Assembly: GCF_005889715.1 (NCBI RefSeq)
Contig: NZ_VCKW01000007.1
Span: forward strand, 1 to 64,000
Direction of reading: 5' to 3'
Origin: Actinomadura soli
GTDB taxonomy: Bacteria; Actinomycetota; Actinomycetes; Streptosporangiales; Streptosporangiaceae
Length of the DNA stretch: 64,000 nucleotides
Shown here piece after piece: positions 20,361-43,506 of the stretch. Both the position numbers and the translations under genes were made by a program. Each line of letters opens with the position of its first letter. Position 1 is the first letter of the stretch. The notes beneath the pieces were generated by a model that was not told the origin of the DNA, made no database searches, and saw only the letters and a list, made by a program, of their open reading frames with translations.

Positions 20361-20413
20361 GGCATACTCCCAGGCCAGTCGTTCACATCATGGACGCCAT
20401 ATTCTCAATCCGG

Positions 20414-22552: not shown

Positions 22553-22565
22553 TCGGGAGTCCGGC

Positions 22566-23021: not shown

Positions 23022-23033
23022 GGAAGGCTACAC

Positions 23034-24602: not shown

Positions 24603-24622
24603 GAGTTTCTCGGGAAGGTCCT

Positions 24623-26979: not shown

Positions 26980-27020
26980 CGCCGCCCCCGTGTTCCGCAC
27001 ACCCGCCACGCTATCAACCC

Positions 27021-27044
27021 ATGGATACATGGACAAGCATCCAT
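27021..27044. promoter_or_regulatory. Inverted repeat, candidate ArsR operator
   Basis: ATGGATACATG (27021-27031) and CAAGCATCCAT (27034-27044) form an 11-bp inverted repeat with 9 matches and a 2-bp centre. It lies in the 125-bp space between the divergent ArsR and MFS genes, where an ArsR dimer would be expected to bind. Confidence 0.6.
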
Positions 27045-27104
27045 ATGTTGCCTAGGGTTTCCCCTCGGTACTTCTGAGGTCCTCTGGAAAGGCGGCACCA
27101 CCCG

Positions 27105-28288: not shown

Positions 28289-28529
28289 GGCCCCTGCCGG
28301 GCCCCGCCACGAGCTCCGGAGTCGTTGCCGGTTCCGGGGCTCCCCGGCCTGGTGGTGCAAGTCACGGGGTGAGGCCGAGTTGGCACAGTTCCGCCGGGCG
28401 TAGCGGCCGCCAGCCGGATCCATCGAGTTCGGCAAGTTCGCCTTCCTTCGCAATCCCGATCCTTCCAGGCCAGAGGCACTTTTCTCATGTCAGCAGACAC
28501 ACTCCGCCCGCCCCAGGCGAAGCCCGAGG
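28289..28529. other. Convergent intergenic region
   Basis: The 240 bp separate the MFS gene from the end of the minus-strand catabolic operon. GCCCCG near 28305 and CGGGGC near 28336 could pair as a loose stem, which might help end both transcripts, but no clean terminator hairpin is visible. Confidence 0.3.
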
Positions 28530-29438
28530 TTAGATGACGCGGTGGAGGAGTTCGTCGCCGCGGGCGAGGCGGTGGCAGTTCCGCGCGGCCACTTCGAAGT
28601 ACCGAGCCCAGGTCTCACCGGTCAGCCAGGCGACGTGCGGCATCACGACGACGTTGCCGAGGGCGAGGAGCGGGTTGTCCGGTTCCACCGGTTCTTCCTC
28701 GAAGACGTCCAGCCCGGCGCCGCCCAGGTGCCCAGACGCCAGGGCGTCCATGAGGGCGGCCTCGTCGATCACCGCGCCGCGCGCCGTGTTCACCACGATC
28801 GCGTCCGGCGGCAGCAGGGCCAGCTTGTCCGCGTCCAGGAGATGGCGGGTTCGGCCGGTGAGCGGGACGTGCACCGACACGATGTCGCTCGCCCGCAGCA
28901 GGTCGTCCAGCTCCCTCCAGGAAGGGTCGTCGCGGCGCGGCCGGCGCGATGTGTAGACGACGTTCGCGCCGATCGCCTCCAGCATCCCGCGCAGCAGCCC
29001 CGCGATCTCCCCGCCGCCGAGCAGCCCGACCGTCCGGCCACCCAGCTCGCCGCCCACCAGCGCACGGTCGGCGTGCCAGCCCTCGCCGCGCCGCATCCGT
29101 GCGTCGAACGCCACGAGGCGGCGCAGCACCGCCAGCATCAGCAGCAGGCTCGTCTCCGCCACGGCCTGCGCGTTGCGGCCCGGCATGTTCGCCACCCGGA
29201 TCCCGCGCTCGGCGGCGGCGTCCAGGTCGATGGTGTTCACCCCGGTGCCGAGCTTCTGGATCAACTTCAGCTTCGGGGCCCGTTCCATGTCTGCGGCGGT
29301 GAGGGGACGCAACACGTGCCAGATGACCTCGGTGTCGGGCAGCAGCGCGGCAAAGCGCTCGTCGTCCCGCTCCGAGCAGCTCACGATGTCCAGGCCCGGT
29401 TCGGCATGGTCCATGTCGTAGTGCAGCAGTACCCGCAT
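28530..29438 (-). CDS. D-2-hydroxyacid dehydrogenase (NAD-dependent)
   Basis: The 302-residue protein has the two-domain 2-hydroxyacid dehydrogenase fold. It shows KLIQKLGTGVNTIDLDAA, the helix NAQAVAETSLLLMLAVLRR, the Rossmann motif TVGLLGGGEIAGLLRGMLEA, catalytic Arg in VVNTARGAVIDE, Glu in GLDVFEEEPVEPDNPLL and His in VMPHVAWLTGE. The usual GxGxxG is GGGEIA, a minor variant. It interconverts a 2-oxo and a D-2-hydroxy acid with NAD(P). It has its own GGAGGG site after a 405-bp gap, so it may be an operon extension rather than strictly co-transcribed. Confidence 0.9.
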   Translation of the reverse strand: MRVLLHYDMDHAEPGLDIVSCSERDDERFAALLPDTEVIWHVLRPLTAADMERAPKLKLIQKLGTGVNTIDLDAAAERGIRVANMPGRNAQAVAETSLLLMLAVLRRLVAFDARMRRGEGWHADRALVGGELGGRTVGLLGGGEIAGLLRGMLEAIGANVVYTSRRPRRDDPSWRELDDLLRASDIVSVHVPLTGRTRHLLDADKLALLPPDAIVVNTARGAVIDEAALMDALASGHLGGAGLDVFEEEPVEPDNPLLALGNVVVMPHVAWLTGETWARYFEVAARNCHRLARGDELLHRVI

Positions 29439-29843
29439 CCGGATTCCCTCCGCTCAGCGCCGGTTCATGACTCGTGGATCCGGGCGCGCCGCCTGGGTGT
29501 TCCGCGGGGCCGTCCCGCCCTCCGCCCAACGGCGGCCGAACCGCCCCCGGGCCGCTGGGACCGCCCTGTGTGCTGCCGTCGTCTTCGCATCCTGCGGCAC
29601 GCGCGCCGATCGAGCGTCCAACTCAGCCTTCCGCGCGGTGACAGCGGCGTCGCCGACCGGACCGACGGGAGTGTCAGAGGACCGTACCTCGGACGGCCGG
29701 AGGTCCGCCGCCCCCCAGACCGGCGGCTCCGCCAGCTTGGGTGGCATGGCTGCGCCGGGAGAAAACACCGTGAGGCGGGGCTTCCAGCACGATCTGCGCC
29801 GCAGACCTGCCTGCCGGCAGGCTACTGGAACAGGGTCGAAGGG
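29439..29843. other. 405-bp gap inside the operon, no supported gene
   Basis: A plus-strand frame from about 29467 begins with a basic segment and a hydrophobic TALCAAVVFASC stretch that mimics a lipoprotein signal. The remainder is Ser/Pro/Arg-rich and has no homologous look, so I do not call it. No terminator or promoter was recognised for the flanking minus-strand genes. Confidence 0.35.
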
Positions 29844-31169
29844 TCAGCAGCCGGCGCTGACCCGCAGCAGGCCGCCGGTGCCGACCGCGTTCTCGTCTCT
29901 ACCGGCACGGGCGGACGACGGCAGGGCGTCCGGGCCGTCCAACTCGTCCACGAAGAACTGATGGCCGGGGATCAGCTTGCCTAGTTCCCGCCGGGTGAAG
30001 CACCGGCCGGCGAGGAAGGTGTACCGCGTGCGTCCCAGATCGAGCAGGTCGCGGTCGGGGGCGCCCTCGACGAGGACCAGGTCGGCTCGGGTGCCCGGGG
30101 TCAGGGTTCCGACGCCCGCTCCCTGGCGCACGATCTGCGCGCCGTTCCGCGTCGCGGCAGCCAGGGCGGCGGCGCGTGAGGCACCGCCGTACTTGTGCAG
30201 CAACCAGGCCTCCTGCGCGACGGTGCCGAGCGTGTCGGTCCCGGTGCCGATCAGCACGCCCGCGTCCACGGCGTTGCCGATCGTCCTCTGGTGGACGTTC
30301 CATAGCGCCGCGTAACGCGGCTGCCAGGACCGTCCCCAGAACTCGCGGCTGTTCTCGAAGAACCCCGACAGCGTCGGAGTGAGAGCGATGCCCCGTTCGG
30401 CCATGGCGGACGCATGGTCGGCCGAAAGGTAGATCCCGTGCTCGATCGTGTCGACGCCGGCCTCGATGCACCGCTCAAGGGCCCGCGACCCGTTCGCGTG
30501 GGCGGCGATGGGCAGGCCGCACTCGTGCGCGGTCTCCACCGCCACCTGGACGGCCTTCGCGGAGAACCAGGGCACCGTCAGCTCGTCGCCGGGCGGGTGC
30601 GGAAGGTCCTCGTTGCTGGCGATGATCTTGATGAGGTCGGCGCCCTCGTGGGCCTGCCGGCGGATGGTCTCCACCAGGCCGTCCAGCGTCGCGACACTCT
30701 CGGCGACGAAGTATGCGTGGCCGTATGACATCCCGATCGCGGCGCCCGAGACGGTCGCCCGGGGGCCGACCATGACCCCGTCGCGAATCGCGTCGCGGAC
30801 GTGCAACCGGGAGTCGTCGTTGTGGCCGAGGTCCCGGACACTGGTGACGCCCTCGCGGAGAAGGTTGAAGGCGGTCCGCGTGGACTTGAGGGCGTCCAGC
30901 GCCACGGGCCCGAGGATGTTCGGCCCGACCGGACCGCCGAGACGCCGGTAGTGAAAGTGCATGTGCGCGTTCACCAGGCCAGGGAGAACGGTGAGGCCGG
31001 TGCCGTCGATCACTTCGGCCGCATGTGCCGGCACCATCCCGTCGTCCATCGGCCCGAACGCATCTGTCTTCCCGCCGCGGACGGCCAGATATCCCCGGTC
31101 GATGACCGTGTTGTCGGCGTCGCAGGCGACGATTCTGACGTCCTTGATGAGCACATCGATCGAACTCAT
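29844..31169 (-). CDS. Metal-dependent amidohydrolase (imidazolonepropionase/prolidase-like)
   Basis: The 441-residue protein begins at ATG 31169, about 8 bases after a GGAG site; TTG 31181 and ATG 31175 are alternatives. Metal-site motifs are complete: PGLVNAHMHFHYRR with H-x-H, a Lys candidate for carboxylation in GADLIKIIASNED, His in LPIAAHANG, His in DTIEHGIYLS, Asp in LIGTGTDTLG. The end LTPGTRADLVLVEG is the usual small domain. The arrangement resembles the amidohydrolase group that includes prolidases and imidazolonepropionase-like enzymes. Its substrate is unknown. It lies 22 bp after the SDR gene. Confidence 0.9.
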   Translation of the reverse strand: MSSIDVLIKDVRIVACDADNTVIDRGYLAVRGGKTDAFGPMDDGMVPAHAAEVIDGTGLTVLPGLVNAHMHFHYRRLGGPVGPNILGPVALDALKSTRTAFNLLREGVTSVRDLGHNDDSRLHVRDAIRDGVMVGPRATVSGAAIGMSYGHAYFVAESVATLDGLVETIRRQAHEGADLIKIIASNEDLPHPPGDELTVPWFSAKAVQVAVETAHECGLPIAAHANGSRALERCIEAGVDTIEHGIYLSADHASAMAERGIALTPTLSGFFENSREFWGRSWQPRYAALWNVHQRTIGNAVDAGVLIGTGTDTLGTVAQEAWLLHKYGGASRAAALAAATRNGAQIVRQGAGVGTLTPGTRADLVLVEGAPDRDLLDLGRTRYTFLAGRCFTRRELGKLIPGHQFFVDELDGPDALPSSARAGRDENAVGTGGLLRVSAGC

Positions 31170-31191
31170 GGGCATCTCCAATTCCTTACGG

Positions 31192-31968
31192 TCACGTCAT
31201 CGCCATCCAGCCGTTGTCGGCCACCAGCGCGGCGCCGTTGACGATCGCGGTGTCGTCGCTCACCAGGGCGAGCGCCGCCGCGGCAATCTCCTCGGGCTCG
31301 CAGAGGCGGCCCTGCCGGCCGGCGATCTCTTCCTCGACGTCGCCGGCGCCGTGGGCGACGAGCTCGTCGATCTCGCGCCGCCCGTGCGCGGTCCTGATGA
31401 ACCCGGGGCAGAGCGCGTTCGCGCGGATCCCGTGCGCGCGGTACTCGACGGCGATGGCCCGCGTGAGCTGCAGGACGGCGCCCTTGGTGACGCAGTAGGC
31501 GCTCTCATTGGGGGACGCGGTGAGACCCGAGATCGACGACGTGTTGAGGATCACTCCGTGGCCGGCCGCCATCATGTGGGGCAGCACCTCCCGGCACATC
31601 AGGAACATGCTAGTGACGTTGATCGCCAGGAGCCGGTTCCAGTCCTCCTCAGAGGTGTCGATCAGTCGCTCGACCAGCACCGTTCCCGCGTGGTTGAACA
31701 GGATGTCGACGCCTCCGAGCCGTTCGGCGGCGGTCGCGACGTACCGCCGCACATCGTCCGCCCGTGAGACGTCGGCCTCGATGAGGTGGGCCTGCCCGCC
31801 CGCCGACCCGATCTCGGCCTCAAGCGCCCGGCCGGCCGGCCCGTCCACGTCCGCGAACAGGACATGCGCGCCTTCGCGGGCGAAGCGGCGGACGCTCGCC
31901 GCCCCGGCTCCGCCGGCACCGCCTGTGACGAGCACGCGGCGCCCGGCCAGTCGGCCCATGCCCGTCAT
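31192..31968 (-). CDS. Short-chain dehydrogenase/reductase
   Basis: The 258-residue SDR has the nucleotide-binding VLVTGGAGGAGAA, an acidic Asp-Val-Asp after strand 2 (LFADVDGPAGRA) that predicts NAD preference, the strand-4 motif as FNHAG instead of NNAG, Ser in NTSSISGLTAS, the YCVTKGA Tyr-Lys pair and CPGFIRTAHG. ATG 31968 overlaps the preceding gene's stop (ATGA). A second SDR with an NADP-type motif sits in the other catabolic cluster. Confidence 0.9.
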   Translation of the reverse strand: MTGMGRLAGRRVLVTGGAGGAGAASVRRFAREGAHVLFADVDGPAGRALEAEIGSAGGQAHLIEADVSRADDVRRYVATAAERLGGVDILFNHAGTVLVERLIDTSEEDWNRLLAINVTSMFLMCREVLPHMMAAGHGVILNTSSISGLTASPNESAYCVTKGAVLQLTRAIAVEYRAHGIRANALCPGFIRTAHGRREIDELVAHGAGDVEEEIAGRQGRLCEPEEIAAAALALVSDDTAIVNGAALVADNGWMAMT

Positions 31969-32897
31969 CCGGACGCCGCGACGGGGAGCGACTGGCCGGC
32001 CTGTTCCGCGAAGAAGGGAAGCGCCTCGGTGACGTCCCGTTCGGCGTGCCCCTGGAGCACCATCAGCTCGTACAGGTGTATCGCCTGCTCGTTGAGCGAC
32101 AATGTCACGCGGTGTTCGTCACCGAGGTCGGCTGCAAGACGGTGGTCCTTCAACTGCAGTGCCACGCTGAATCCGGGATCGAGGTCCCCGCGAAGCAGGC
32201 GTGGCACCAGATAATCCGTCATGAAGTAGGACTTGGCGTCGGTATGCTGGAACACCTCCAGCAGGCGTTCGGGCGAGAGCCCGACGGCCGCGCCGAGCGC
32301 GAACGCCTCCGCCGTGACGAGCGTGTAGACGCCGGACATCATGTTGCTGATGAGTTTGATCGTGCTTCCGCTACCGGACGGGCCGATGTGGAGGTACACC
32401 TTGCCCAGTGCGTCCATGACCGGCTTGGCCTTCTCGAAGGCATCGGCGTCCCCGCCGACCATGAAGGTGATCGTTCGCGCGGCCGCACCCTCGACGCCCC
32501 CGTTCATCGGCGCGCCGCCGCTGACCGGCGTGTCGAGGTAGGCGACGCCGTGCTCGGCCGCTGCCGCGTACATCCGGCGGCTCGTGACGGGTGACACGGT
32601 GCTCAGATCCAGGACGACCGTCCCGGGGGCGGCGCCCGCCAGGATTCCGTCGTCGGCCAGGAACGCCTGTTCGACGGCCGGCGGGTTGGGCAGCGACACG
32701 ACGATGACTTCGCTCGCGGCGGCCAGGTCCCGAGCGCTGCGGGCCCCGGTCGCGCCATCGCGCGCGACCGCGTCGACGCGCGCCCGGTCGAGGTCGAACA
32801 CACTCACCTCCTCGGCGGCGTCGAGGAGGTGCCGGGCATAGATCCGGCCGATCGAGCCCAGCCCGACCTGCCCGATGCGCTGCTTCAGTTTCCGCAC
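31965..32897 (-). CDS. 3-hydroxyisobutyrate dehydrogenase-like oxidoreductase
   Basis: The 310-residue protein starts at GTG 32897 after a GAGG site. It has the beta-hydroxyacid-dehydrogenase order: Rossmann motif GQVGLGSIGRIYARHLL, LDLSTVSPVTSRRMY, the substrate motif YLDTPVSGGAPMNGGVEGA, TFMVGGDADAF, and the catalytic Lys in STIKLISNMMSGVYTLV. It oxidises a beta-hydroxy acid or reduces the corresponding semialdehyde. The usual GxxGxG at the N terminus is GLGSIG, intact. Confidence 0.9.
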   Translation of the reverse strand: MRKLKQRIGQVGLGSIGRIYARHLLDAAEEVSVFDLDRARVDAVARDGATGARSARDLAAASEVIVVSLPNPPAVEQAFLADDGILAGAAPGTVVLDLSTVSPVTSRRMYAAAAEHGVAYLDTPVSGGAPMNGGVEGAAARTITFMVGGDADAFEKAKPVMDALGKVYLHIGPSGSGSTIKLISNMMSGVYTLVTAEAFALGAAVGLSPERLLEVFQHTDAKSYFMTDYLVPRLLRGDLDPGFSVALQLKDHRLAADLGDEHRVTLSLNEQAIHLYELMVLQGHAERDVTEALPFFAEQAGQSLPVAASG

Positions 32898-32926
32898 GGA
32901 GATCCTCTTTCCGGTTGACCGTGCCC

Positions 32927-34357
32927 TCAGAAGAGAGCAGGGAATTCCAGTCGTTCCTCGAACCGCCGCGCCGCCCAGAGAACCTCGGGGTCCAGGCCCG
33001 GCCGGCCGACGAGCAGGAGCCCGATCGGCACCCCATCGCGGTCCAGGCCGCAGGGAATACTGACGCTGGGAGGGCCGCCATTGGCCCACCCGACGTGCGG
33101 GCACGCCCCGGACGTCCACCCGTAGGCGAGCTCTTCGATCACGGCGCATTCGTCGTGCCAGGGCAGCTCGGCGTCGAAGGACGGGTAGTAATTGCAGGCG
33201 AGTACCAGCAGGTCATAGCGTTCGAACGTGGACGTGAGGCGGCGGCCGAACCGCTCTGTGAGCTCGCGGACCACCCTGTCGGCCTGGTCCGCGGATCCGG
33301 CCGAGGCGCGCGCCCGCGCGACCGTCTCCCGTACCACCGGGTGCAGGCGTTCGGCGAACTCCGGCGGCCTGCCGTCCAGCGACCGGCCGATCCGCGCGAA
33401 GGCCGCGGCGACGGCAGCCTCCCACATCGGGCCTTCGAAGATCGGCTCTGGGATCTCCTCGATGCGGACCGTCCCGCTCAGCCGGTCGAGTGCAGCCTCG
33501 ACCGCCGCCCGCACGACGGGATGGACGTCGCCGACGCCCGGGTCGGCGCTCGCGTTCGGCAGGTACCCGACGCGCAGGTCGCCGAGCGACTCCCAGCGCG
33601 GGGCTCCGGCCGGCCCGGCGACCTCGTCGAACACGAAGATGTGGTCGTCGACGTCCCGGCTGATGAACCCCCGCATACCGCTGGACCGGGGAACATCGCC
33701 GGGCGGATGGCCGAACGGCCCGGACTGCGCGGTGGCCTTCAGCGCGACGCACCCGCAGCCGCCCGCGGGCGACCGCAGCGACCCGCCGCCGTCGGTGCCC
33801 AGGTGGACGGGGCCGAGGTGCGCGGCGGCCGCCGCCGCGCCGCCGGAGGTAGAACCGCCCGTGCTCTTGGCCAGGTTCCACGGGTTGCGCACCGGCCCGT
33901 ACAGGGCGCTGAAGCTCCCTGAGAACAGGCCGGTCTCCACCATCGTCGACTTGGCGAACAGGACGGCGCCGCGGTCGAGGAACGCACCGACCAGCGGATC
34001 CCGCTTCGCCGGAAAGCGCGTGAACAGATTCGTCCGGGATCCCAGGTACGTCGGCGCGCCCGGCACGTCCATGTTGTCCTTGACGGTGATCGGCAGCCCG
34101 TCGAGGCGGCTGAGGGGCGTGCCGCGCAGCCAGCGACGTTCCGACGCGGCGGCGGCCGTCCACGCGGACTCGTCGAAGCGCCAGTACAGCGCCGATAGAT
34201 AAGGATCGACCCGCTCGGCGCGGGCGAGCACTGCCTCCAGCACCTCGACGGGCGACAACTCCCCCGCCGCGTACGCGGCGCGGATCTCACAGGCGGACAT
34301 CCGGCAGATCGGGTCGGGTGGAATCGCCAGCCGTCTCGGCTCGTTCGCCACGGTCAC
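32927..34357 (-). CDS. Amidase (amidase-signature family)
   Basis: This amidase-signature enzyme of 476 residues has the catalytic Lys in LPITVKDNMDVPGAP, the Ser-rich stretch STGGSTSGGAAAAAA and the nucleophile Ser in GTDGGGSLRSPAGGCGC. I choose GTG 34357, which follows AGGAAGG; homologues begin near here. CGLDRDGVPIGLLLVGRPG near the C terminus is the usual small beta element. It lies 29 bp after the beta-hydroxyacid dehydrogenase gene and 95 bp before the VOC gene. It differs clearly from the amidase at 15881-17332, so it is not a recent duplicate. Confidence 0.9.
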   Translation of the reverse strand: MTVANEPRRLAIPPDPICRMSACEIRAAYAAGELSPVEVLEAVLARAERVDPYLSALYWRFDESAWTAAAASERRWLRGTPLSRLDGLPITVKDNMDVPGAPTYLGSRTNLFTRFPAKRDPLVGAFLDRGAVLFAKSTMVETGLFSGSFSALYGPVRNPWNLAKSTGGSTSGGAAAAAAHLGPVHLGTDGGGSLRSPAGGCGCVALKATAQSGPFGHPPGDVPRSSGMRGFISRDVDDHIFVFDEVAGPAGAPRWESLGDLRVGYLPNASADPGVGDVHPVVRAAVEAALDRLSGTVRIEEIPEPIFEGPMWEAAVAAAFARIGRSLDGRPPEFAERLHPVVRETVARARASAGSADQADRVVRELTERFGRRLTSTFERYDLLVLACNYYPSFDAELPWHDECAVIEELAYGWTSGACPHVGWANGGPPSVSIPCGLDRDGVPIGLLLVGRPGLDPEVLWAARRFEERLEFPALF

Positions 34358-34451
34358 GGCTTCCTTCCTGTCATCCGGTTGTCGCCGTCGGCCGGCGGAG
34401 CGACGCCGCCCGGCCGCCGGATTCGCGCTTGCCCGCAGATCCGGGGCCGGC

Positions 34452-35240
34452 TCATCCGGCCCACCGGTCGAGACGCAGGGAGAACGGCCTGCCGACCGCG
34501 GGGCCGGCGGTGAAGGATTCGTTCCCGGACAGGCGTACCGCGCAGACGCCGGCCCCATGCGAGGCCAGCGCCTCGGCCGCGCCCGCGCCGGACGACGGCC
34601 CGCCGAGCCGCAACTCCACGCCGCCGAGGCCGATCACGCCGCGGTCCTCCTCGCCATGCGCGACCGCCTCGAATCCGAGCGCGCGGTAGTGCCGCATGTG
34701 CGGCTCCACCCGCGGCACGAGGACGTCGAGGGCGGTGATGTCCGTGGCGCCGTTCGGGTGGTCGCCGGGCACGGCCGCCGGCAGGGGGGCGTCACCCCAG
34801 TCGATGAACGAGGGAAAGCCCCGCCGCCACGGACCGGCGCCCGGCTGCAGCACCGAGAAGGCCACGGCCCGGCCCGCCGGATCGTCGCGGGACAGCCGGT
34901 CCGGCCCACCCATGGCGATACCGGCGGAATCCAGCCGCGCGCGGACGTCCTCCAGGTCTCCGGCGCGCAGCACGAAGATCAGGGGAATCTCGTCATAGGC
35001 GTCCACGAGTTCCACGAACCGGGCGCCTTCGTTGAGGCGCCGTCTCGCCGCGACCGCGTCGCGCACGCCGATCAGCTCGATGTAGCGCCCGGCCCGGAAC
35101 GGGATGATCACGTTCTCCGTGCCGAGGGCGTGGTGCCGACCGCCCGCCCGAACGTCGAAACCAAGCCCCCGGTACCGCGCCGCAGCGGTGTCGAGGTCGG
35201 CGACGGCGATCATCAGGTGGTCGAACTCAGGTCTGCTCAT
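34452..35240 (-). CDS. VOC-family (glyoxalase-like) protein
   Basis: The 262-residue protein has two related halves of the vicinal-oxygen-chelate fold. The first opens EFDHLMIAVADLDTAAARYR with RGLGFDVRAGGRHHALGTEN and IELIGV; the second opens ITALDVLVPRVEPHMRHYRA. The candidate metal ligands are His in the first strand, the HHALGT pair and Glu in the strand RYIELIG. It resembles glyoxalase-like-domain proteins (Glyoxalase_3). In the operon it may open or isomerise a ring or act as a dioxygenase/hydrolase, but the chemistry cannot be assigned. It overlaps the hydrolase gene by 14 bases. Confidence 0.8.
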   Translation of the reverse strand: MSRPEFDHLMIAVADLDTAAARYRGLGFDVRAGGRHHALGTENVIIPFRAGRYIELIGVRDAVAARRRLNEGARFVELVDAYDEIPLIFVLRAGDLEDVRARLDSAGIAMGGPDRLSRDDPAGRAVAFSVLQPGAGPWRRGFPSFIDWGDAPLPAAVPGDHPNGATDITALDVLVPRVEPHMRHYRALGFEAVAHGEEDRGVIGLGGVELRLGGPSSGAGAAEALASHGAGVCAVRLSGNESFTAGPAVGRPFSLRLDRWAG

Positions 35241-36063
35241 CGGCAGCCGCCTTCACCAGAAGATCGACGAAGATCTCGGGCTCGCTCAGGTGCGGTGTGT
35301 GACCCTGCCCGGGCAGCACCTGGTGGGACCAGCCCCCGCTTGCCCGGAGGGCGGCGGCAACGTGGCGCAGGAACGACGGACTCTCCGATCCGACGGTCAG
35401 CCGCACGAGCGGCGCGAGACGGGCGAGTTCGCCGTCGGAGAACCGCCGCAGGGCGATGAGCGGCAGGTCGTCGCGGATGAAGGCCTCCGCGTTCCTCGCC
35501 TCCATCGCCCAGCGGCCGGGCGCCATCCGGGCGATGGAGCCCTCGCCGTTCACCGCCTCCATCAGTGCGGCGTAGGCGCCGGCGTGATCTCCGGGCGTCC
35601 CGGCGAGGGCGTGCCGGACGGTGCCGTCGAGACGCTCGAACTCCTCCATCCCGTAGCCGACGTGTCGGAACGCGGGGGGTTCGTGCACGTGGGCCCGAAC
35701 GACCGACGCCGGTGCGCGCAGGGCGAGTTCCAGCGCGACCATCGCTCCCGAGCTCACGCCCAGGACGGTCACCTCGGCGAGGTCCAGTGCCGTCAGCAGC
35801 GTAACGGCGTCGCGCGCATGCCCCGGGGCCCCGTCGACCGGCCACCCGTCCCGCCCGCTGCGGCCGGTGCCGCGCCGGTCGTAGACGAACGCCTCGTACC
35901 CGGCCGCGGCGAGCGCCTCGGCCTGCGAAACCCATCCGGTGGAGTCCTCCGCGCCGGCGTGCACCAGTAGAACCGGTCGGCCGACGCCGCGGCGCTCGAC
36001 GTAGAGGGGGCATCCGTCCGGCATGATCACGTGCTCGGCGGTGTACTCCGAAGCGCCGCTCAC
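35227..36063 (-). CDS. Alpha/beta hydrolase
   Basis: This 278-residue hydrolase starts at GTG 36063, which overlaps the ABC-ATPase stop as GTGA. It shows RPVLLVHAGAEDSTGW (oxyanion strand), AFVYDRRGTGRSGRDGW, the nucleophile elbow in LGVSSGAMVALELAL with Ser and no Gly before it in the usual place (GVSSGA), and GHTPHLSEPEIF for the His. An acidic residue follows VRLTVGSES. It is a typical soluble hydrolase that may cleave an ester or lactone produced by the operon's enzymes. Confidence 0.85.
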   Translation of the reverse strand: MSGASEYTAEHVIMPDGCPLYVERRGVGRPVLLVHAGAEDSTGWVSQAEALAAAGYEAFVYDRRGTGRSGRDGWPVDGAPGHARDAVTLLTALDLAEVTVLGVSSGAMVALELALRAPASVVRAHVHEPPAFRHVGYGMEEFERLDGTVRHALAGTPGDHAGAYAALMEAVNGEGSIARMAPGRWAMEARNAEAFIRDDLPLIALRRFSDGELARLAPLVRLTVGSESPSFLRHVAAALRASGGWSHQVLPGQGHTPHLSEPEIFVDLLVKAAADEQT

Positions 36064-37712
36064 TTGGCGACCCCCGCTCCGTCGGCCGGTCTGGTGGAGG
36101 CGACCAGGGCCTCCGACAGTGAAGGCGCCGCCTCGACCAAACGGCACGTGTAGGGGTCCTGCGGCGTGCGCAGCACCTCGCCGGCCGGCCCGTACTCCCG
36201 GCACCGGCCGCGCTCGACCACCATGATCGTGTCGGCGACGACGCTGACCGCACCGAGGTCGTGCGAGATGAACAGGAGCGCCAGGTCCAGGTCACGGCGC
36301 AGCTCGTTGATCAGTTCGAGCACCGAGGCCTGCACCGAAACGTCCAGCGCCGAGGTGATCTCATCGCACACGAGCAGGTCCGGGGAGGAGGCCAGGCCCC
36401 GGGCGATGGCGACGCGCTGGCACTCGCCGCCCGAGAGCTCCCCGGGATACGCGGCGGCGATGTCCTTCCGGATCCGCACCCGCTCGAGCAGCCGCGCGAC
36501 CTCAGCGCGGGCCTCGCGCTCGGGCATCCCCCGCAGGACGCGCAACGGCCGCCGGATGGAGTCCCCGACCGTCCGGCGCGGGTTCAGCGACGCGAAGGGG
36601 TCCTGGAAGATGTACTGGATCCGGCGGAGCTCGTCCCTGCCGCGCGCGGTGGCCGAAGGCGGGAGCGGCGAGCCGTCCAGGAGGACGGCCCCGTGGTCCG
36701 CCCGGTGCAGGCCGACCACGGTGCGGGCGATCGTCGTCTTACCCGAGCCGGACTGCCCGACGATCGCCAGGCACTCTCCCGCGCGGATCTCGAACGAGAT
36801 CCCCTCCGCCGCGACGATCGCGCGGCCCTTCGTACGGTGGCTCGCATGGAGATCTTTGACGGCCAGCAGCGACACCGGCCCGATGGCCGGGGGACCATCC
36901 GGCGCCGCGGAGATGACGGCACGGGCCGGTGATCCGCCGAGGGCACGATGGTCGACGACCGCGGCGACGAGGCCGCGGGTGTACTCGTGCGACGGCCGGG
37001 CGAGCAGGCTCCGGCTGAAGCCCGCCTCGACGACGCGGCCCTGGTACATCACGACGACGCGGTCGGTGTGCGCGGCGACCAGCGCGAGGTCGTGCGACAC
37101 CAGGATCACCCCCACCTTCAGATCCCGCCGGATCCGGTCGAGGTGTGCGAGGACCGCCGCCTGGGTGATCACGTCCAGGCCGGTGGTCGGCTCGTCGAGG
37201 ACGAGGACCTTGGGGCGGTTCGCCAGTGCGAGGGCCAGGCAGAGCCGCTGCTGCTGGCCGCCGGACAGCTGGTGCGGGAATTTGCGCCGGAAATCCTCGT
37301 CGTCCGGCAGCTCGACGAGGTCGAGCGTCTCCGCGACGCGTGCCGCCCGCTCGGCCGCCGTCATGCCGGTGAGGATCTCGGTGATCTGGTCGCCCACCCG
37401 CATCAGGGGGCTGAGCGCGGAGGCGGGGCTCTGCGGGACGTAGGCGACGAGCCGCCCGCGCGCCGCACGGGCTTCCTTCTCCGGCCGCCCGGTGAGTTCG
37501 GCATCCGCGACCCGCACCCGGCCGGAGACGACCCGGAGCCCGTGTCGCACCCACCCGAGAAGCGTCAGCGCGGTGGTCGTCTTCCCCGACCCCGACTCCC
37601 CGACAACGCCGACCGCCTCGCCGGCGCCGACCGAGAACGAAACCTCATGCAGGATCGTCCGGCCCGCATGATCTTCGATGGTCAGGCCTTCGACTTCAAC
37701 CAGGGGATTCAC
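36060..37712 (-). CDS. ABC importer ATPase, two fused nucleotide-binding domains (DppD-DppF type)
   Basis: This 550-residue protein fuses two ATPase domains on one chain, with a linker near residues 265-285. Domain 1 has Walker A GESGSGKTT, signature LSGGQQQR and Walker B VLVLDEPTTGLD. Domain 2 has GQSGSGKTT, LSGGECQR and LLVCDEITSALD. Peptide/opine/nickel importers usually have two separate ATPases, so fused chains are a known variant. GTG 37712 overlaps the DppC-type permease stop. The domains power the two permeases encoded directly upstream. Confidence 0.93.
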   Translation of the reverse strand: MNPLVEVEGLTIEDHAGRTILHEVSFSVGAGEAVGVVGESGSGKTTTALTLLGWVRHGLRVVSGRVRVADAELTGRPEKEARAARGRLVAYVPQSPASALSPLMRVGDQITEILTGMTAAERAARVAETLDLVELPDDEDFRRKFPHQLSGGQQQRLCLALALANRPKVLVLDEPTTGLDVITQAAVLAHLDRIRRDLKVGVILVSHDLALVAAHTDRVVVMYQGRVVEAGFSRSLLARPSHEYTRGLVAAVVDHRALGGSPARAVISAAPDGPPAIGPVSLLAVKDLHASHRTKGRAIVAAEGISFEIRAGECLAIVGQSGSGKTTIARTVVGLHRADHGAVLLDGSPLPPSATARGRDELRRIQYIFQDPFASLNPRRTVGDSIRRPLRVLRGMPEREARAEVARLLERVRIRKDIAAAYPGELSGGECQRVAIARGLASSPDLLVCDEITSALDVSVQASVLELINELRRDLDLALLFISHDLGAVSVVADTIMVVERGRCREYGPAGEVLRTPQDPYTCRLVEAAPSLSEALVASTRPADGAGVAK

Positions 37713-38638
37713 GCGCCGTCCCGTCCTGCTCGGCCACCGGCGATACGCCGGTGCAGGCCGTCGGAGAAGATGTTCACGGAGACGGCCAGGGCGATGATGG
37801 CCAGTGCGGGGAAAGCCACCGGCCACGGGCTCAGGGTGACGCCCGGCATGTTCTCCTTGATCATGAGCGCCCAGTCCGCTGCCGGCGGCTGGGTGCCGAC
37901 GCCGAGGAAGCCGGCCGAGGCGATCACGAAGATCGAATAGATCAGGAGCAGTCCGGTGATGGCGAGCACCGGACCGGCGATGTTCGGCAGGATCTCCCGC
38001 AGGAGGATCGCCCGGCGTGACTCACCGCGCAGGACCGCGGCCTCGACGAACGGGCTGCGCACGACGCCGAGCGTCGCCGTGCGGACGATCCTGGCGATGT
38101 ACGGCGCGGCCGAAATCATGATCGTCGGGATGAGGATCGTCGTTCCCCGGGCCGAGCCGGACGTGAGCACGAGCAGGACGACCAGCGGGGGAAGGATGAG
38201 GAAGAGGTCGACGACCCGGTTCAGGACGGCCGCGGCGACCCCGCGGATGTAGCCGAGCAGGAGCCCGAGCGCCGTGCCGAGGACACCGGCCGCGATCGTG
38301 CAGGCCGCCGCCAGCAGCATCAGCGATCGACCGCCGGCCAGCAACCGGCTCAGCAGGTCCCGCCCGAGGTAGTCGGTGCCGAGGACGCCGGCCTCCCCCG
38401 GCCCGGCATAGGGCGCGCCGATGACCTCCCGGACGGGATGCGGCGCCAGGAAGGGCGCCAGCTGCGTGAAGAGGACAACGGCCAGGACGACACATCCGCT
38501 GGCCGACGGGACGGCGGAGGCGAAGTGCCGCCTCGCCGGGGACGCCCCGCCGCCGAGTTCCCGCGCGAACTCGTCGCCGGGCTGCAGCACGGTCGCCGTC
38601 GGGCGGTCCCCGGCCCCGTGTTCGGTGATCGCTTTCAT
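37709..38638 (-). CDS. ABC importer permease (DppC family)
   Basis: The 309-residue permease has an N-terminal cytoplasmic segment, about six TM helices and the DppC signatures: LGTDYLGRDLLSRLLAGGRS after helix 1, and the EAA loop with VRSPFVEAAVLRGESRRAIL and REILPNIAGPV. ATG 38638 overlaps the stop of the DppB-type gene (ATGA). The substrate family is peptide, opine or nickel; a small polar organic solute fits the operon better than a true peptide. Confidence 0.92.
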   Translation of the reverse strand: MKAITEHGAGDRPTATVLQPGDEFARELGGGASPARRHFASAVPSASGCVVLAVVLFTQLAPFLAPHPVREVIGAPYAGPGEAGVLGTDYLGRDLLSRLLAGGRSLMLLAAACTIAAGVLGTALGLLLGYIRGVAAAVLNRVVDLFLILPPLVVLLVLTSGSARGTTILIPTIMISAAPYIARIVRTATLGVVRSPFVEAAVLRGESRRAILLREILPNIAGPVLAITGLLLIYSIFVIASAGFLGVGTQPPAADWALMIKENMPGVTLSPWPVAFPALAIIALAVSVNIFSDGLHRRIAGGRAGRDGA

Positions 38639-39591
38639 AGCGCCGTCCGCAACTTCGGAGTGAGAAGGCTGACCGCCAGATCGGCGGCGGTGTAGGCGAT
38701 GATCAGTGCCGCCGCGAGGACCATCACGATGCCCTCTACAAGAGCGAAGTCCCGTGTCGTGACGGCCGCGGCGAGCGCCGAGCCGAGCCCCGGGTAGGAG
38801 AACACGGTCTCGACGATCACCGATCCCCCGATGACGACGCCGACGCTGCCGGCCAAGACCTGCAGCGACGGGCCGACGGCGTTGGGGATCACGTGCCGCA
38901 GAACGACCCGCCTCTCCGGCAGGCCTTTCAGGCGCGCCAACTCGACGTAACGGGAGCGCATCACGTCGGCGACGCCCACTCGCACCTGCCGCGATGCGCC
39001 GCTCGCGGCGACCAGGGTCAGCGTCGCCACCGGGAGCACGAGCACGGTCGGATGCATCAGCGGGGAGTCCTCCACCGGGAAGATCGACGTGGCCGGCAGG
39101 AGCTTCAACCCGAAACCGAAGATGACGATCAGGGCGGCGGCCAGCACGAACTCGGGGATGGCGACGAGGCACAGCGTGATCAGCGAGAAGACACGGTCAC
39201 CGATACGGCCCTCCCGGGTTCCGGCGAAGACTCCGACGGCCAGGGCCAGCGGGACCATGAGGAGGATCACCAGGACGCCGAGGATCACCGTGTTCCCGAT
39301 CCGGCCTTCGATCACCGCGGACACCGACTGCCCGTTGATCGCCGAACGGCCCATGTCTGCCTGCAGCAGCCCGGAGAACCAGTCGAGATACCGCTCGGGC
39401 GGTGACCGGTCCAGGCCGAGTCGGTGCCGCGTCTCGGCCATCAGTTCCGCGGACGGGTTCTGACCGGCGAGCGCGTAGACCGCCGCGTCGCCGGGCAGCA
39501 CCTCGATCGCGGCGAACACCAGGACCGACAGCGGCGGCAGCATCGCCAGGCCGCCCAGGGTCCGGAGGAACAGGAAGCGCGCGACCCGCAT
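38635..39591 (-). CDS. ABC importer permease (DppB family)
   Basis: The 318-residue protein has the DppB hallmarks. The N-terminal helix is RFLFLRTLGGLAMLPPLSV followed by LPGDAAVYALAG, then RLGLDRSPPERYLDWFSGLL and the EAA loop with RSRYVELARLKGLPERRVVL. The end reads VFSYPGLGSALAAAVTTRD. About six TM helices. ATG 39591 is 4 bases after the substrate-binding-protein stop. It pairs with DppC to form the channel. Confidence 0.92.
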   Translation of the reverse strand: MRVARFLFLRTLGGLAMLPPLSVLVFAAIEVLPGDAAVYALAGQNPSAELMAETRHRLGLDRSPPERYLDWFSGLLQADMGRSAINGQSVSAVIEGRIGNTVILGVLVILLMVPLALAVGVFAGTREGRIGDRVFSLITLCLVAIPEFVLAAALIVIFGFGLKLLPATSIFPVEDSPLMHPTVLVLPVATLTLVAASGASRQVRVGVADVMRSRYVELARLKGLPERRVVLRHVIPNAVGPSLQVLAGSVGVVIGGSVIVETVFSYPGLGSALAAAVTTRDFALVEGIVMVLAAALIIAYTAADLAVSLLTPKLRTAL

Positions 39592-39595
39592 CCCC

Positions 39596-41245
39596 CTAGG
39601 ACTTCCATGCCTTGCGGACGCTCGGCGCGTCCTCGACGCCAGCAAGACTGACCCCGTGCACGGAGGAGGCCGTGCCGTTGACGATGGTCTGGTAGCCCCA
39701 CACGATCCAGCCGCTGTCGTCCCAGAACTCCGATTGGAGCCGGAACATCAACTTCTTGCGTTTCGCCTGGTCGGTGGTGGCCCGGGCGGCGAGAAGGCGC
39801 CGGTCCCAGTCGCGGTCGAGCCAGCCGGCGACGTTGAACGTCGACTTGGAGACCAGTGACCGCGGCGCCACCGAGGTCGCGAACGGCTGGTTCCCCGGAA
39901 CCGCCACGGCGAGGACCTGAATGTTGCTGAACGTCGGGAAGTTCTTGAACAGCTCGGGGGGCGTGATCTCGCGGACCCGCGCCTTCATCCCCACCTTGCC
40001 CAGCTGCTCCGCGTAGATCTGTGCCGCCGCCGCGGTTCCGACACCGGGGAACACGGAGATCTCGACGGTCTCACCGGCGACGCCGGCCTGCCGCAGCAAC
40101 GCCTGGGCCTGTGCGGGATCGTAGGCGCGCTGGGGCAACTCGTCACCGTAGTAGTCCGGGAACCCGATGCCCTGCAGGTCGTTGGCGACCGAGCCGTAGC
40201 CGAGCAGGGCGCCCTTGACGAGGGCTTCGCGCTGGCAGGCGAGCTTGAACGCGAGCCGCACGCGCGGGTCGTCGAACGGCTTCTTCCTCGAGTTCATGAT
40301 GAAGCAGCCCTCGTTCGCGTAGACACGATCGGTCTTGGTGAACGAGAAGGCCGAGTTCGAGGCGTTCACTTTCGCTCCGGCGTAGTCGAGCTTCGCCGCG
40401 AGGTCGGCCTGCCCGCCAAGAAGCGCGTTGAGCCGCGCCGTCGGGTCGGGGATGTTGAAGACCTCGATCTCGCTGAAGTACGGGCCTCCGCCCAGGAGCC
40501 CGCGGCCCCAGTAGTTCTCGTTCATCGCAAGCTTGGCTGACTGGCCCACCTTCAGGTCGGCCAAGGTGTACGGACCTGACCCGACGACGTTGTCGACCGT
40601 GAAGCTCTCCGGCTTGCTGAGGTGGGAGCCGGCTTTGATCACATAGACCTTGCCGGCGTAGATCTGCGTGTCCATGTCGGCGAGCGGTTCCGTCAGGCGC
40701 AGTTCCACCACGTCCTTGCCCACCGTACGGGACGCCTTGAAGTCGATCGACGCCGCCGCGGCGCTCAGCAACCCGCCGCCGATCTTCGGATCGCTGGCCG
40801 AGCGCAGCGAGAACAGGACGTCGGCCGCCGTGACCGGTGAACCGTCGGAGAACCGCGCCTCCTTGTGGATCCGCATGCGCCACCGGCTGACGTCGTCCGC
40901 CGGCTCGATCGACTCGACGATGTACGGGACGGGCTCGCCGCCCTCCATGTAGCCGACCCAGTCGAAGAGGTGCCGGTTGCGGGCGATCTCCTGCGGCGAG
41001 TTGGTGTTGAAGACGTTCTTCGTCTCCGACTGGACGCCGGCGCCGGCGAAGCGCAGCCGACCGCCACGCTGAGGTGTCAGCGCGGGTGCGGCGTCGCTCT
41101 TGCACGCGGCCAGGAAGGGGCTGAGCGCCAGCATGCCTCCGCTGAGAGCACCGAAGCTGAGAACGTCCCGACGTCCGAACACCGGAGCCTTCCCGTCGGT
41201 GGCCGTGCGGGGATCTGTGGCGTTTCGACTGTCGACGTTGGACAT
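39596..41245 (-). CDS. ABC importer substrate-binding lipoprotein (family 5)
   Basis: The 549-residue protein starts at ATG 41245 behind GAGGAG. The N terminus has a twin-arginine-like FGRRDVLSFGALSGG segment and a lipobox (PFLAAC), so it may be exported by Tat and lipid-anchored. The mature part is family-5: an RGGRLRFAGAG start, IVESIEPADDVSRWRMRIHK, DGSPVTAADVLFSLRSASDP, GSGPYTLADLKVGQSAKLAM and later DDPRVRLAFKLACQREALV. This first gene of the operon would capture the imported compound outside the cell. Confidence 0.93.
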   Translation of the reverse strand: MSNVDSRNATDPRTATDGKAPVFGRRDVLSFGALSGGMLALSPFLAACKSDAAPALTPQRGGRLRFAGAGVQSETKNVFNTNSPQEIARNRHLFDWVGYMEGGEPVPYIVESIEPADDVSRWRMRIHKEARFSDGSPVTAADVLFSLRSASDPKIGGGLLSAAAASIDFKASRTVGKDVVELRLTEPLADMDTQIYAGKVYVIKAGSHLSKPESFTVDNVVGSGPYTLADLKVGQSAKLAMNENYWGRGLLGGGPYFSEIEVFNIPDPTARLNALLGGQADLAAKLDYAGAKVNASNSAFSFTKTDRVYANEGCFIMNSRKKPFDDPRVRLAFKLACQREALVKGALLGYGSVANDLQGIGFPDYYGDELPQRAYDPAQAQALLRQAGVAGETVEISVFPGVGTAAAAQIYAEQLGKVGMKARVREITPPELFKNFPTFSNIQVLAVAVPGNQPFATSVAPRSLVSKSTFNVAGWLDRDWDRRLLAARATTDQAKRKKLMFRLQSEFWDDSGWIVWGYQTIVNGTASSVHGVSLAGVEDAPSVRKAWKS

Positions 41246-41287
41246 GACTGGCTCCTCGGGTCACTCGCCAGTTTTGACGTTCCGTGT

Positions 41288-41317
41288 ACGGTATTCCATA
41301 TCTGATATGACGGTCAA
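41288..41317 (-). promoter_or_regulatory. Candidate operon promoter with palindrome
   Basis: On the minus strand TTGACC (41317-41312) and TACCGT (41293-41288) are 18 bases apart, about 45 bases before the SBP start. A perfect dyad CATATC-T-GATATG (41297-41309) lies between them. The adjoining GTATTCCATA (41291-41300) overlaps the -10 and matches the GntR-gene element at 42390-42399 in nine of ten positions. A GntR/FCD dimer binding here could repress the importer operon. Confidence 0.5.
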
Positions 41318-41443
41318 TACTCCCCATGCGGACGTTTGCGGAGGTAGAGCAGGGGTTCGATGACTCAAGGCGGCGGTGGCGGTGCGGGCGCTCAACCGCC
41401 CCTGGGGCCGGAACCGGATGCCCGGCGTCGAAACCAGCTCGAT

Positions 41444-41640
41444 TCAAGCGGCGTCGGCGGCCTTCGCGAACGCGCCTTGGAGGGTCGTCCAACGCATGGT
41501 GCCGTGCCTGATCGACTGGTGCCGTGACTTGAGGAGCGAGCCCGGATCGGCCGATTCGGTTACTGGGATGTAGTGCTCGACCCAAGTGTCGAGGGCTGTG
41601 TGTGTTGGTCGTTGGTCCGCTCGGCGAGAAGTGCGACGGC
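41444..41640 (-). pseudogene. Unassigned coding fragment
   Basis: A minus-strand frame ending at TGA 41444-41446 reads HTALDTWVEHYIPVTESADP, then GSLLKSRHQSIRHGT and TLQGAFAKAADAA. Codon use is coding-like and the end is a plausible C-terminus. The 5' part changes to Arg/Pro-rich noise before 41640. I do not recognise the family. Confidence 0.3.
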
Positions 41641-41714
41641 ACGCCGCCGCGCTCTGGAACACGCTGTCGGCCGGTCCACCGGACCGGTCACCGACGGCGA
41701 CGGGTGGGTGACGT

Positions 41715-42386
41715 TCAGGCGGACGCGGACGGCCGGTCGCGGTCGTTGAAGAGCTCCTCGACTGCGGCGAGATGGTCGCGCATGTGCCTGGCGGCCGAAG
41801 CCTCGTCGCGCCGGGCCAGTGCCTCGGCGATGGCGACGTGCTGGTACGCGGATGCGACGATCCCGGCCTGGGCGAGGGCCTCAACGTGCCGCAGCGCACG
41901 CATCAGGGTCGCCGCGTCGTGGATGAGGCCGGCGATCCGCTGGTTGCCGGACGCTTCGGCGATCGCCGCGTGGAACTCCCGGTCCAGGCCGAAATAGCCG
42001 TCGAGATCACCGGCCTGCGCGGCCGTCAGGGACCCTTCGGCGAGGTCCCTGATGTGGGCGAGGGCATCGTCGGAGCCACGCTCTGCGGCGGCCGTCACGG
42101 CGAATGCCTCAAGCGCCTGCCGCGTCTCGTAGGCGTCACGCAGGACCTGCTCGGAGCGTTTGATCACGCGGTTGCCGCGGAGTCCGTCCGGCTCGATCAA
42201 GCCCACCTGCCGGAGGCGCAGCAGCGCCTCGCGCACAGGGGTCTTGCTCACCTGGAGCTGCTGGGCGACACCCGCTTCGGTTAGCCGCGCGCCAGGAGAC
42301 AGCGCACGCGTCGCGATCGCGTCGTGCAGCTGGGTGTACACCACGTCTGCGAGCGTGTCTGTTCTGGAAACCGGATCAAGTGCCAT
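41715..42386 (-). CDS. GntR-family (FCD) transcriptional regulator
   Basis: The 223-residue regulator starts at ATG 42386 and has the FadR/FCD layout. The winged helix has TLADVVYTQLHDAIATRALS, PGARLTEAGVAQQLQVSKTP and VREALLRLRQVGLIEPDG. The FCD domain has the helix ending EAFAVTAAAERG, FGLDREFHAAIAEASGNQRI with metal-type D and H residues, and ASAYQHVAIAEALARRDEA with a further His. FCD proteins often bind carboxylate metabolites. It lies directly upstream of the importer operon on the same strand and is its likely regulator. Confidence 0.92.
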   Translation of the reverse strand: MALDPVSRTDTLADVVYTQLHDAIATRALSPGARLTEAGVAQQLQVSKTPVREALLRLRQVGLIEPDGLRGNRVIKRSEQVLRDAYETRQALEAFAVTAAAERGSDDALAHIRDLAEGSLTAAQAGDLDGYFGLDREFHAAIAEASGNQRIAGLIHDAATLMRALRHVEALAQAGIVASAYQHVAIAEALARRDEASAARHMRDHLAAVEELFNDRDRPSASA

Positions 42387-42389
42387 CTC

Positions 42390-42399
42390 GTATACCATA
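42390..42399. promoter_or_regulatory. Candidate GntR operator (GTATACCATA)
   Basis: GTATACCATA sits just 4 bases upstream of the GntR start codon (42386). GTATTCCATA at 41291-41300, near the operon promoter, differs by one base. It contains the 6-bp palindrome GTATAC. FCD-type GntR regulators typically bind short AT-rich palindromes such as these, so autoregulation is plausible. Confidence 0.45.
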
Positions 42400-42468
42400 C
42401 ACCGAGTATGCCGAAGGGCGCCCTGCGGGAAGCCGTTGGCCACGTTGTGCCGCGAGCGCAGGAGGCGA

Positions 42469-43422
42469 TCACGGCCGCGCCTCGCGTGAGCGTACAAGAG
42501 CTTCCGTGAGTGCCGTGGTGTGCTCGGCCAGCGCCGCGACCAGGGCAGGCGGCGACCTGATGGTGAACCGCCAGGGCAGCCCGGTCAGGAGGCGGGCCAT
42601 GGCCGGCAGGTCCTCTGCGCCGCTGACCAGGAGCACGCCACCCTCGGGGCACAAGTGCAACTCGCCGAAGGTGACCGGCAGCCGCGCCCGCGCGGTATCC
42701 GGGTCGGTGTCGAGCCACACCTCCGTGCGGTGCGTCCACGCGCCGAGTGTCAGCGTCCGCAGGACGTGCTCCACCGGGTCGACCCCGCTGGGCGGGGAGA
42801 ATCGGCGCGGCAACTCGGCGGCGTCGGCGATCCTGTCCAGACGGAAGACGCGGAGATCGCCGCGGAGGTGATCGTGGCCGACCAGGTACCAGCGGCGGCT
42901 GTGCACCACGAGGCCGTACGGATCCACGTCGCGGACGCCGCGGGCGTGCTCGATCCGGACGGTGCGGTGCCCGTGCACGGCGGCCGCCAGTATCAGGGCC
43001 AGATCCGGATCCGGTGTCAGCGCGCCGGCGGCCGTGGCGCCGGTCGTGGCGAGAAGCATCATGACGCGCTCGCGGAGCGCGCCGGGCAGGAGACGGTTGA
43101 GCTTGAGGAGCGCACGGTCGGTGGCGCTGGGCTCGCCGGTCTTCTCGCGCTCGCCCGCGGCGGCCAGCGCGATGGCCACGGCGACGGCCTCGTCGTCGCC
43201 GAGCATGAGCGGGGGCAGCCGGTAGCCGCGGGCGAGCCGGTAGCCGCCGTACCGTCCGCGGACCGACTCGACCGGGATTTCGAGCTCGCGGAGGGCGGTG
43301 ACGTAGCGGCGGACCGCCCGGGGGTCGACCCCGAGCCGACCGGCCAGTTCCCCGGCGGACACGAGCCCGCGGTCCTGCAGCAGTTCGAGCAATGCTAGGA
43401 CGCGAGTCGCCGGACGTGACAC
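42469..43422 (-). CDS. WYL-domain transcriptional regulator (YafY type)
   Basis: The 317-residue protein starts at GTG 43422. It has an HTH (RPATRVLALLELLQDRGLVS, AGELAGRLGVDPRAVRRYVT), then RGRYGGYRLARGYRLPPLML, a middle helical region, and a WYL domain (YGLVVHSRRWYLVGHDHLRG, DLRVFRLDRIADAAELPRRF). The WYL motif itself is RRWYLVG. It is divergent from the hydrolase/epoxide-hydrolase pair and probably controls it. An ATG at 43458 would give a 12-residue extension not seen in homologues. Confidence 0.9.
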   Translation of the reverse strand: MSRPATRVLALLELLQDRGLVSAGELAGRLGVDPRAVRRYVTALRELEIPVESVRGRYGGYRLARGYRLPPLMLGDDEAVAVAIALAAAGEREKTGEPSATDRALLKLNRLLPGALRERVMMLLATTGATAAGALTPDPDLALILAAAVHGHRTVRIEHARGVRDVDPYGLVVHSRRWYLVGHDHLRGDLRVFRLDRIADAAELPRRFSPPSGVDPVEHVLRTLTLGAWTHRTEVWLDTDPDTARARLPVTFGELHLCPEGGVLLVSGAEDLPAMARLLTGLPWRFTIRSPPALVAALAEHTTALTEALVRSREARP

Positions 43423-43506
43423 GGCCCACAGTCTAATGAGGGCAGAAAGCGTCCACAATCCTCCCTAGCCTTTGCTTCCCCGAAGCTCTCTCGAAAGGAA
43501 GCAGGC

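Follow-up and report, generated by a model that had tools for sequence, protein, structure and literature searches.

A twelve-gene unit of Actinomadura soli, conserved in Actinomadura chibensis and likely to import and catabolize an amide-linked compound

Gene order and conservation of the unit

We analyzed a stretch of 64,000 nucleotides (here, the window) from Actinomadura soli (contig NZ_VCKW01000007.1, positions 1 to 64,000), part of a 9.04-Mb draft genome in 622 contigs. Eleven co-directional genes run along its minus strand from 41245 to 28530, beginning with a peptide-type substrate-binding protein and ending with a D-2-hydroxyacid dehydrogenase (Table 1). A gene for a GntR/FCD regulator, also on the minus strand, precedes the binding-protein gene by 469 bp, giving a unit of 12 genes. 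The unit is real, the single comparison that could be made shows it to be maintained by selection, and it is likely an inducible operon for the import and catabolism of a small amide-linked compound.

Most of the genes are tightly packed. The starts of the DppC-type permease, the ATPase, the α/β-hydrolase, and the short-chain dehydrogenase (SDR) genes each overlap the stop of the preceding gene by 4 bp (38635-38638, 37709-37712, 36060-36063, and 31965-31968, respectively), while the VOC gene begins within the last 14 bp of the α/β-hydrolase gene (35227-35240). The initial annotation had listed these five overlaps, and all were right when read base by base. The eleven close genes that it described are likewise present, with two loose junctions (94 and 405 bp); its placement of the regulator "just upstream" holds for strand and side and is slightly generous because of the distance to the binding protein. 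Two starts allow alternatives: the amidohydrolase may begin at ATG 31169, ATG 31175, or TTG 31181, and the regulator at ATG 42386 or the in-frame ATG 42398. No Rfam match at gathering level was found in 27000-44000. An insertion element was considered for the 405-bp gap and is not supported, as the search of the genome for other copies of 29439-29900 matched only 41 bases at 84% (40 of 213 candidates scored).

Table 1. Genes and candidate regulatory sites of the unit, listed 5′ to 3′ along the minus strand
Feature	Position	Strand	Evidence
Candidate operator TATGGTATAC at regulator start, also possible -10	42390..42399	-	Exact TATGGWATAC match
GntR/FCD regulator	41715..42386	-	Pfam GntR and FCD above cutoff; 88% amino acid identity in A. 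chibensis
Likely operon promoter TTGACC-18-TACCGT	41288..41317	-	Inside island conserved with A. chibensis
Candidate operator TATGGAATAC in operon promoter	41291..41300	-	Exact TATGGWATAC match; identical in A. chibensis
SBP_bac_5 substrate-binding protein	39596..41245	-	PF00496; 85% amino acid identity in A. chibensis
DppB-type permease	38635..39591	-	PF00528 and PF19300
DppC-type permease	37709..38638	-	PF00528; ATGA overlap
DppDF-type ATPase, two domains fused	36060..37712	-	Two ABC_tran stretches; two Walker A and two LSGG motifs
α/β-Hydrolase	35227..36063	-	PF00561; GVSSG and GH also in A. chibensis
VOC protein, Glyoxalase_3	34452..35240	-	PF13468, E 1.1e-36; FDH, IEL, GGxHxxxGTxN also in A. 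chibensis
Amidase-signature amidase	32927..34357 (GTG 34357 assumed start)	-	PF01425, E 1.6e-54; Lys, GGSTSGG, GTDGGGS motifs
3-Hydroxyisobutyrate-dehydrogenase-like (HIBADH-like) beta-hydroxyacid dehydrogenase	31965..32897	-	PF03446 and PF14833; Lys motif GSxxK, both species
SDR	31192..31968	-	PF13561; TGGxGGxG and YxxxK
PF01979 amidohydrolase, prolidase/ochratoxinase-like	29844..31169	-	PF01979; HxH, K, H, H, D aligned with solved relatives; 90% identity in A. chibensis
D-2-Hydroxyacid dehydrogenase	28530..29438	-	PF02826 and PF00389; R, E, H motifs, both species

An amidase scan of genome contigs, restricted to close relatives, gave 17 pattern matches and one relative, A. chibensis NBRC 106107. 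All 12 proteins are encoded there on contig 36 (NZ_BCQP01000036.1) in the same order and orientation, with protein identities of 74-90%; the conserved neighborhood in relatives that the initial annotation had named as a check was found in this one relative. The cassette is 84-88% identical at the DNA level, and the blastn blocks span 28533-42411 with gaps at 29456-29919, 34334-34448, and 41345-41724. Outside these limits (28533 and 42411), only short matches (≤190 bp) turned up in the A. chibensis sequence surrounding the cassette. All 12 genes are under purifying selection, with ratios of nonsynonymous to synonymous substitution rates (dN/dS) of 0.13-0.41 in this single comparison. The four 4-bp overlaps are kept in A. 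chibensis, and the fifth junction is an overlap in each genome (14 bp here, 4 bp there). The two loose junctions differ: the amidase gene is preceded by 94 bp here and by a 4-bp overlap in A. chibensis, and the last gene by 405 bp here compared to 32 bp there.

A candidate promoter and a shared box

The regulator belongs to the FadR subfamily of GntR proteins, combining a GntR helix-turn-helix with an FCD domain. According to one study (PMC4494728), regulators of this subfamily bind carboxylic acids and recognize boxes of the form TKGT/ACMA, with a GT-AC spacing of 2 or 3 nucleotides. Upstream of the binding-protein ATG, 83 of 100 bases are identical to A. chibensis, whereas the next 100 bp agree at 38 positions (both ungapped). 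The likely operon promoter falls inside this conserved island; its pattern occurs twice in the 64 kb (0.19 expected), a number reached in 3 of 100 shuffles.

Exact matches to TATGGWATAC occur just twice in the window, once in the operon promoter and once at the regulator start. The A. chibensis counterpart of the second site, TATGGTATTC, carries one mismatch and also lies within a conserved island. The shared box is likely an operator, and the unit is probably under the control of its own GntR protein. We propose that this protein would repress the operon together with its own gene by occupying the shared box at each start site, and that repression would be lifted when an acidic compound of the pathway removes it. 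Should TATGGT at the regulator start serve as a -10 element, ATG 42386 would be the first codon of a leaderless message.

Importer, enzymes, and predicted function

All parts of a peptide-type ATP-binding cassette (ABC) importer are present, comprising a binding protein, two permeases, and two ATPase domains. The binding protein begins with a twin arginine and a lipobox-like LAAC. Its best solved relative is AapF, followed by dipeptide and opine binders, and nickel binders are also among its relatives; judged by the names of these relatives, solved members of the family bind nickel, agrocinopines, and chitin oligosaccharides as well. An NCBIfam scan covered ten of the proteins, all except the binding protein and the regulator. 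The fused ATPase scored 365.5 bits against NikD (cutoff, 318.7) and 357.4 against NikE (cutoff, 332.55), these scores being summed over two domains. For both permeases, nickel-type models stood among the best NCBIfam rows. These matches, together with the nickel-binding relatives of the binding protein, could be read as an importer for a nickel complex or metallophore whose chelator the enzymes process. We regard this as very improbable: neither the NikB nor the NikC cutoff was reached by the permeases, the ATPase scores add two domains together, AapF heads the solved relatives of the binding protein, with dipeptide and opine binders next, and seven catabolic-type enzymes are attached.

The amidohydrolase is the most conserved protein of the set. 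It carries the subtype I motif set of a binuclear center (HxH, a bridging Lys, two more His, and Asp), kept in A. chibensis and shared, in alignments with LlADH, 2QS8, and 8IHQ, with the dipeptidase/ochratoxinase group. Activities in this group include hydrolysis of dipeptides, N-acyl-amino acids, and ochratoxin, as described in PMC11342369. Against the Xaa-Pro dipeptidase equivalog NF051886, the protein reached 151.5 bits, below the 500-bit cutoff. Since, in addition, it is missing an insert after GHA, it likely acts on a different amide.

Paralogs of the amidohydrolase in the genus bear on where its substrate comes from. We inspected 20-kb regions around 12 of its 71 noncassette genus matches, these 12 being taken from the best 13. 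DppB and DppC relatives were present in 10 of the 12 regions, within ~0.2 kb of the paralog in four, 2-3 kb in four, and 6-7 kb in two. Relatives of these permeases were absent from all 7 control regions (125 kb) and all 30 uvrA loci (168 kb). Because importer permeases lie near the paralogs in 10 of 12 regions compared to none of 37 controls, the amidohydrolase probably acts on an imported compound. More widely, the 12 regions suggest that many prolidase/ochratoxinase-like amidohydrolases of Actinomadura may act on the cargo of a nearby peptide-type importer, a link that gives an entry point to an extensive set of enzymes mostly annotated just as "amidohydrolase."

This recurrent pairing of Dpp and PF01979 genes would also suit plain peptide scavenging, in which a Dpp importer serves a dipeptidase and the other enzymes are loosely attached. 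That explanation seems rather unlikely, given that all six further enzymes are under selection and keep their order between the two species and that the missing insert and the low Xaa-Pro dipeptidase score point away from such an enzyme. Detoxification deserves slightly more weight, although we still consider it unlikely. Here, the cell would use the importer and hydrolases to bring in a peptide-like antibiotic or mycotoxin and inactivate it by degradation, not to feed on it. The closest solved relatives of the amidohydrolase by sequence include the amide hydrolase LlADH and ochratoxinase, ochratoxin hydrolysis is among the activities that PMC11342369 gives for the group, and zearalenone hydrolases are among the closest solved relatives of the α/β-hydrolase. 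However, these similarities are remote (E 1e-31 and 1e-12, respectively), plain dipeptidases occur in the same enzyme group (PMC11342369), and a dedicated importer with three dehydrogenases suits nutrition better.

The remaining enzymes were assigned to families from domains and motifs, and the motifs of the amidase, HIBADH-like protein, SDR, D-2-hydroxyacid dehydrogenase, α/β-hydrolase, and VOC protein are present in both species. The amidase is a clear member of the amidase-signature family (PF01425, 186.1 bits against a cutoff of 27), with the catalytic Lys and two Ser motifs. The HIBADH-like protein has the family domains and Lys motif and scored 190.4 bits against 3-hydroxyisobutyrate dehydrogenase TIGR01692, below the 291.6-bit cutoff. 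The α/β-hydrolase is nearest in sequence to an arylesterase and to zearalenone hydrolases/lactonases among solved proteins (E ~1e-12). For the SDR, the nearest solved relative by sequence is dihydroanticapsin 7-dehydrogenase. This last relationship, in a genus whose species make many natural products, could hint at a tailoring or supply role in a secondary-metabolite pathway. Such a role is improbable, as no synthase, ligase, carrier protein, or exporter lies inside the conserved block, which contains an importer and a regulator of the FadR type.

We return to the import-and-catabolism reading, which we favor with fair confidence. In the proposed sequence of events, a membrane-anchored binding protein would capture the compound and the Dpp/Opp-type importer would take it in. 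The PF01979 metalloenzyme, the amidase, or both would then cut amide bonds, and the α/β-hydrolase may cut an ester, a lactone, or a further amide. The three dehydrogenases would oxidize the freed 2-hydroxy, 3-hydroxy, and other alcohol groups toward central metabolites, with the VOC protein serving an accessory step. The initial annotation had pointed to uptake and stepwise hydrolysis/oxidation of an amide- or lactone-containing compound. Its importer, hydrolases, and three dehydrogenases stand, as does the amide, to which the motifs point; for the lactone there is just a generic α/β-hydrolase. Pantothenate-like amides are one guess at the substrate from general chemistry.

Several points weigh against this reading. 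Among the NCBIfam matches listed, the fused ATPase alone exceeds equivalog cutoffs, all of them for nickel models, and no enzyme exceeds one. The box was picked after both sites had been seen, which tempers the contrast between its two matches and the 0.01 expected (0 of 100 shuffles had two). A strict Escherichia coli-type promoter scan did not report the operon promoter. The 12 paralog regions are not independent, forming eight groups at <60% identity, of which six have Dpp permeases, and the uvrA controls represent one locus in 30 genomes, with ~5.6 kb each compared to the 20-kb paralog regions. The sole other carrier is a single species, A. chibensis, so the conserved block rests on one comparison. 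Finally, the unit is loose ahead of the amidase (94 bp, 34358-34451, taking GTG 34357 as the start) and ahead of the last gene (405 bp, 29439-29843). These gaps, set beside the -4 and 32 bp of A. chibensis, raise the possibility that this strain makes two or three transcripts, with separate promoters before the amidase and the last gene. We think this doubtful, in that the strict scan found no promoter-like site in the gaps, though it overlooked the conserved operon promoter too; split transcription would in any case be compatible with import and catabolism.

Distribution of the cassette and comparison with known systems

The cassette is rare. The amidohydrolase ortholog occurs in 2 of 65 genus genomes, and the next match has an E value of 9e-40. 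At strict limits, samples of wider groups returned the source genome itself, with the amidohydrolase in 1 of 396 phylum genomes (E 1e-60) and the amidase in 1 of 150 family genomes (E 1e-90). In a tree of one gene, uvrA, built from the best 30 matches in the 65 genus genomes, the window's genome groups with draft genomes G587 and G589 (100/97; G589 alone, 93/89) and A. chibensis groups with draft genome G598 (100/100). These three, with 26 of 46-47 candidates scored per genome, contain distant amidohydrolases only. Because the nearest uvrA relatives of both carriers are without the cassette amidohydrolase, the unit was either lost several times or gained separately.

The surroundings of the cassette differ between the two species. 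In the window, its neighbors at 42469-45272 are genes for a WYL regulator, an α/β-hydrolase, and an epoxide hydrolase. In A. chibensis, this trio is kept as a group at 72-75% protein identity on a different contig (C25); bases 8001-45000 of that contig do not contain the cassette. In the opposite comparison, a 10-kb stretch of the A. chibensis contig that carries the cassette, beginning ~2.2 kb past the regulator, gave only short matches of ≤373 bp in the window's genome (40 of 1,854 candidates scored). No transposase or integrase was recognized among 26 neighboring frames scanned in the two species, 7 of which matched no family. Recent transfer between the species was considered and is not supported: synonymous divergence (dS) is 0.32-0.49 in the cassette, above the 0.18 of uvrA. 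The cassette values overlap those of four putative frames beside uvrA (0.34-0.60), and the WYL/hydrolase/epoxide-hydrolase trio is higher (0.54-0.63). Two probable shadow frames were left out of this comparison (1,293 amino acids, dS 0.26; reverse-strand, 481 amino acids, dS 0.05, dN/dS 1.8), and window 1-12000 against A. chibensis contig C85 yielded no dS row. Separately, a sulfotransferase gene and a gene with no Pfam match at 49494-51489 align with the beginnings of two A. chibensis contigs; their DNA identity, 90-91%, exceeds that of the cassette (84-88%) and the WYL trio (78%).

Homologs of single cassette proteins were also followed outside the genus. The VOC protein was found at E 1e-8 in 19 of 396 phylum genomes, including its own, the best-scoring foreign match being 37%. 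None of the 18 foreign VOC loci holds the cassette: within ≤1.5 kb on each side, SDR relatives accompany VOC at two loci and a HIBADH relative at one, and 10 of them viewed as 4.9- to 20-kb stretches contain SDRs, one ABC ATPase, and one hydrolase match. Seven plasmid regions with amidase, amidohydrolase, or VOC homologs, each compared with the cassette proteins, do not hold the set either (one region is without annotation); the best plasmid homolog of the amidase is 34% identical. On plasmids of one Rhizobium and one Agrobacterium, an amidase gene adjoins Dpp-type genes. On a Rhizobium tumorigenes plasmid, a VOC relative comes right after genes for a TIGR04028-type importer, a luciferase-like monooxygenase, CMD, and alkylhydroperoxidase.

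The window contains a second catabolic gene group at 13461-25999. Its minus strand encodes an acyl-CoA-ligase-type AMP-binding enzyme, an SDR, an amidase 36% identical to that of the cassette, and a thiamine pyrophosphate enzyme; its plus strand encodes an IclR regulator, TctC, TctA, and a PF01979 amidohydrolase.

A full-text literature search, with most subscription papers outside its reach, returned no description of such an operon. It is a tentative idea that the unit is a relocatable, self-contained cassette for a hydroxy-acid amide outside all described pathways. On this view, the importer and its regulator would travel with three hydrolases, two hydroxyacid dehydrogenases, the SDR, and the VOC protein as one block with sharp borders, found at unrelated sites of Actinomadura genomes. 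With a complete pathway unit, a likely operator, and exact boundaries, the locus is well suited to a search for its substrate, and the ligand of the binding protein could point to a catabolic route that is new.

Catabolic operons of this kind are familiar. The importer resembles the Dpp/Opp/Gsi type in its SBP_bac_5 protein, two BPD_transp_1 permeases, fused ATPase (as in GsiA and YejF), and usual gene order. It differs, among the matches listed, in that the permeases reach no equivalog cutoff and the fused ATPase passes NikD and NikE rather than any Dpp/Opp/Gsi/Yej model. The amidohydrolase shares the subtype I set with the prolidase/ochratoxinase PF01979 group (2QS8, 3MTW, 3MKV, 4C5Y, LlADH 9L2T, and 8IHQ) but is distant from it (best E 1.1e-31), the insert after GHA being present in all four aligned solved relatives. 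The amidase has the Lys, GGSTSGG, and GTDGGGS motifs of the amidase-signature family, although it falls under all NCBIfam amidase cutoffs among the matches listed. Compared to FadR-subfamily catabolic regulators with 2-nucleotide-spaced boxes, such as HypR and UxuR (PMC4494728), the regulator here has just two predicted sites and shares the GntR and FCD domains. The boxes TGGT-AT-ACGA and TGGA-AT-ACCG resemble the TKGT-N2-ACMA form given there for this subfamily, agreeing with TKGT-N2/3-ACMA at 7 of 8 and 6 of 8 positions for a box chosen post hoc.

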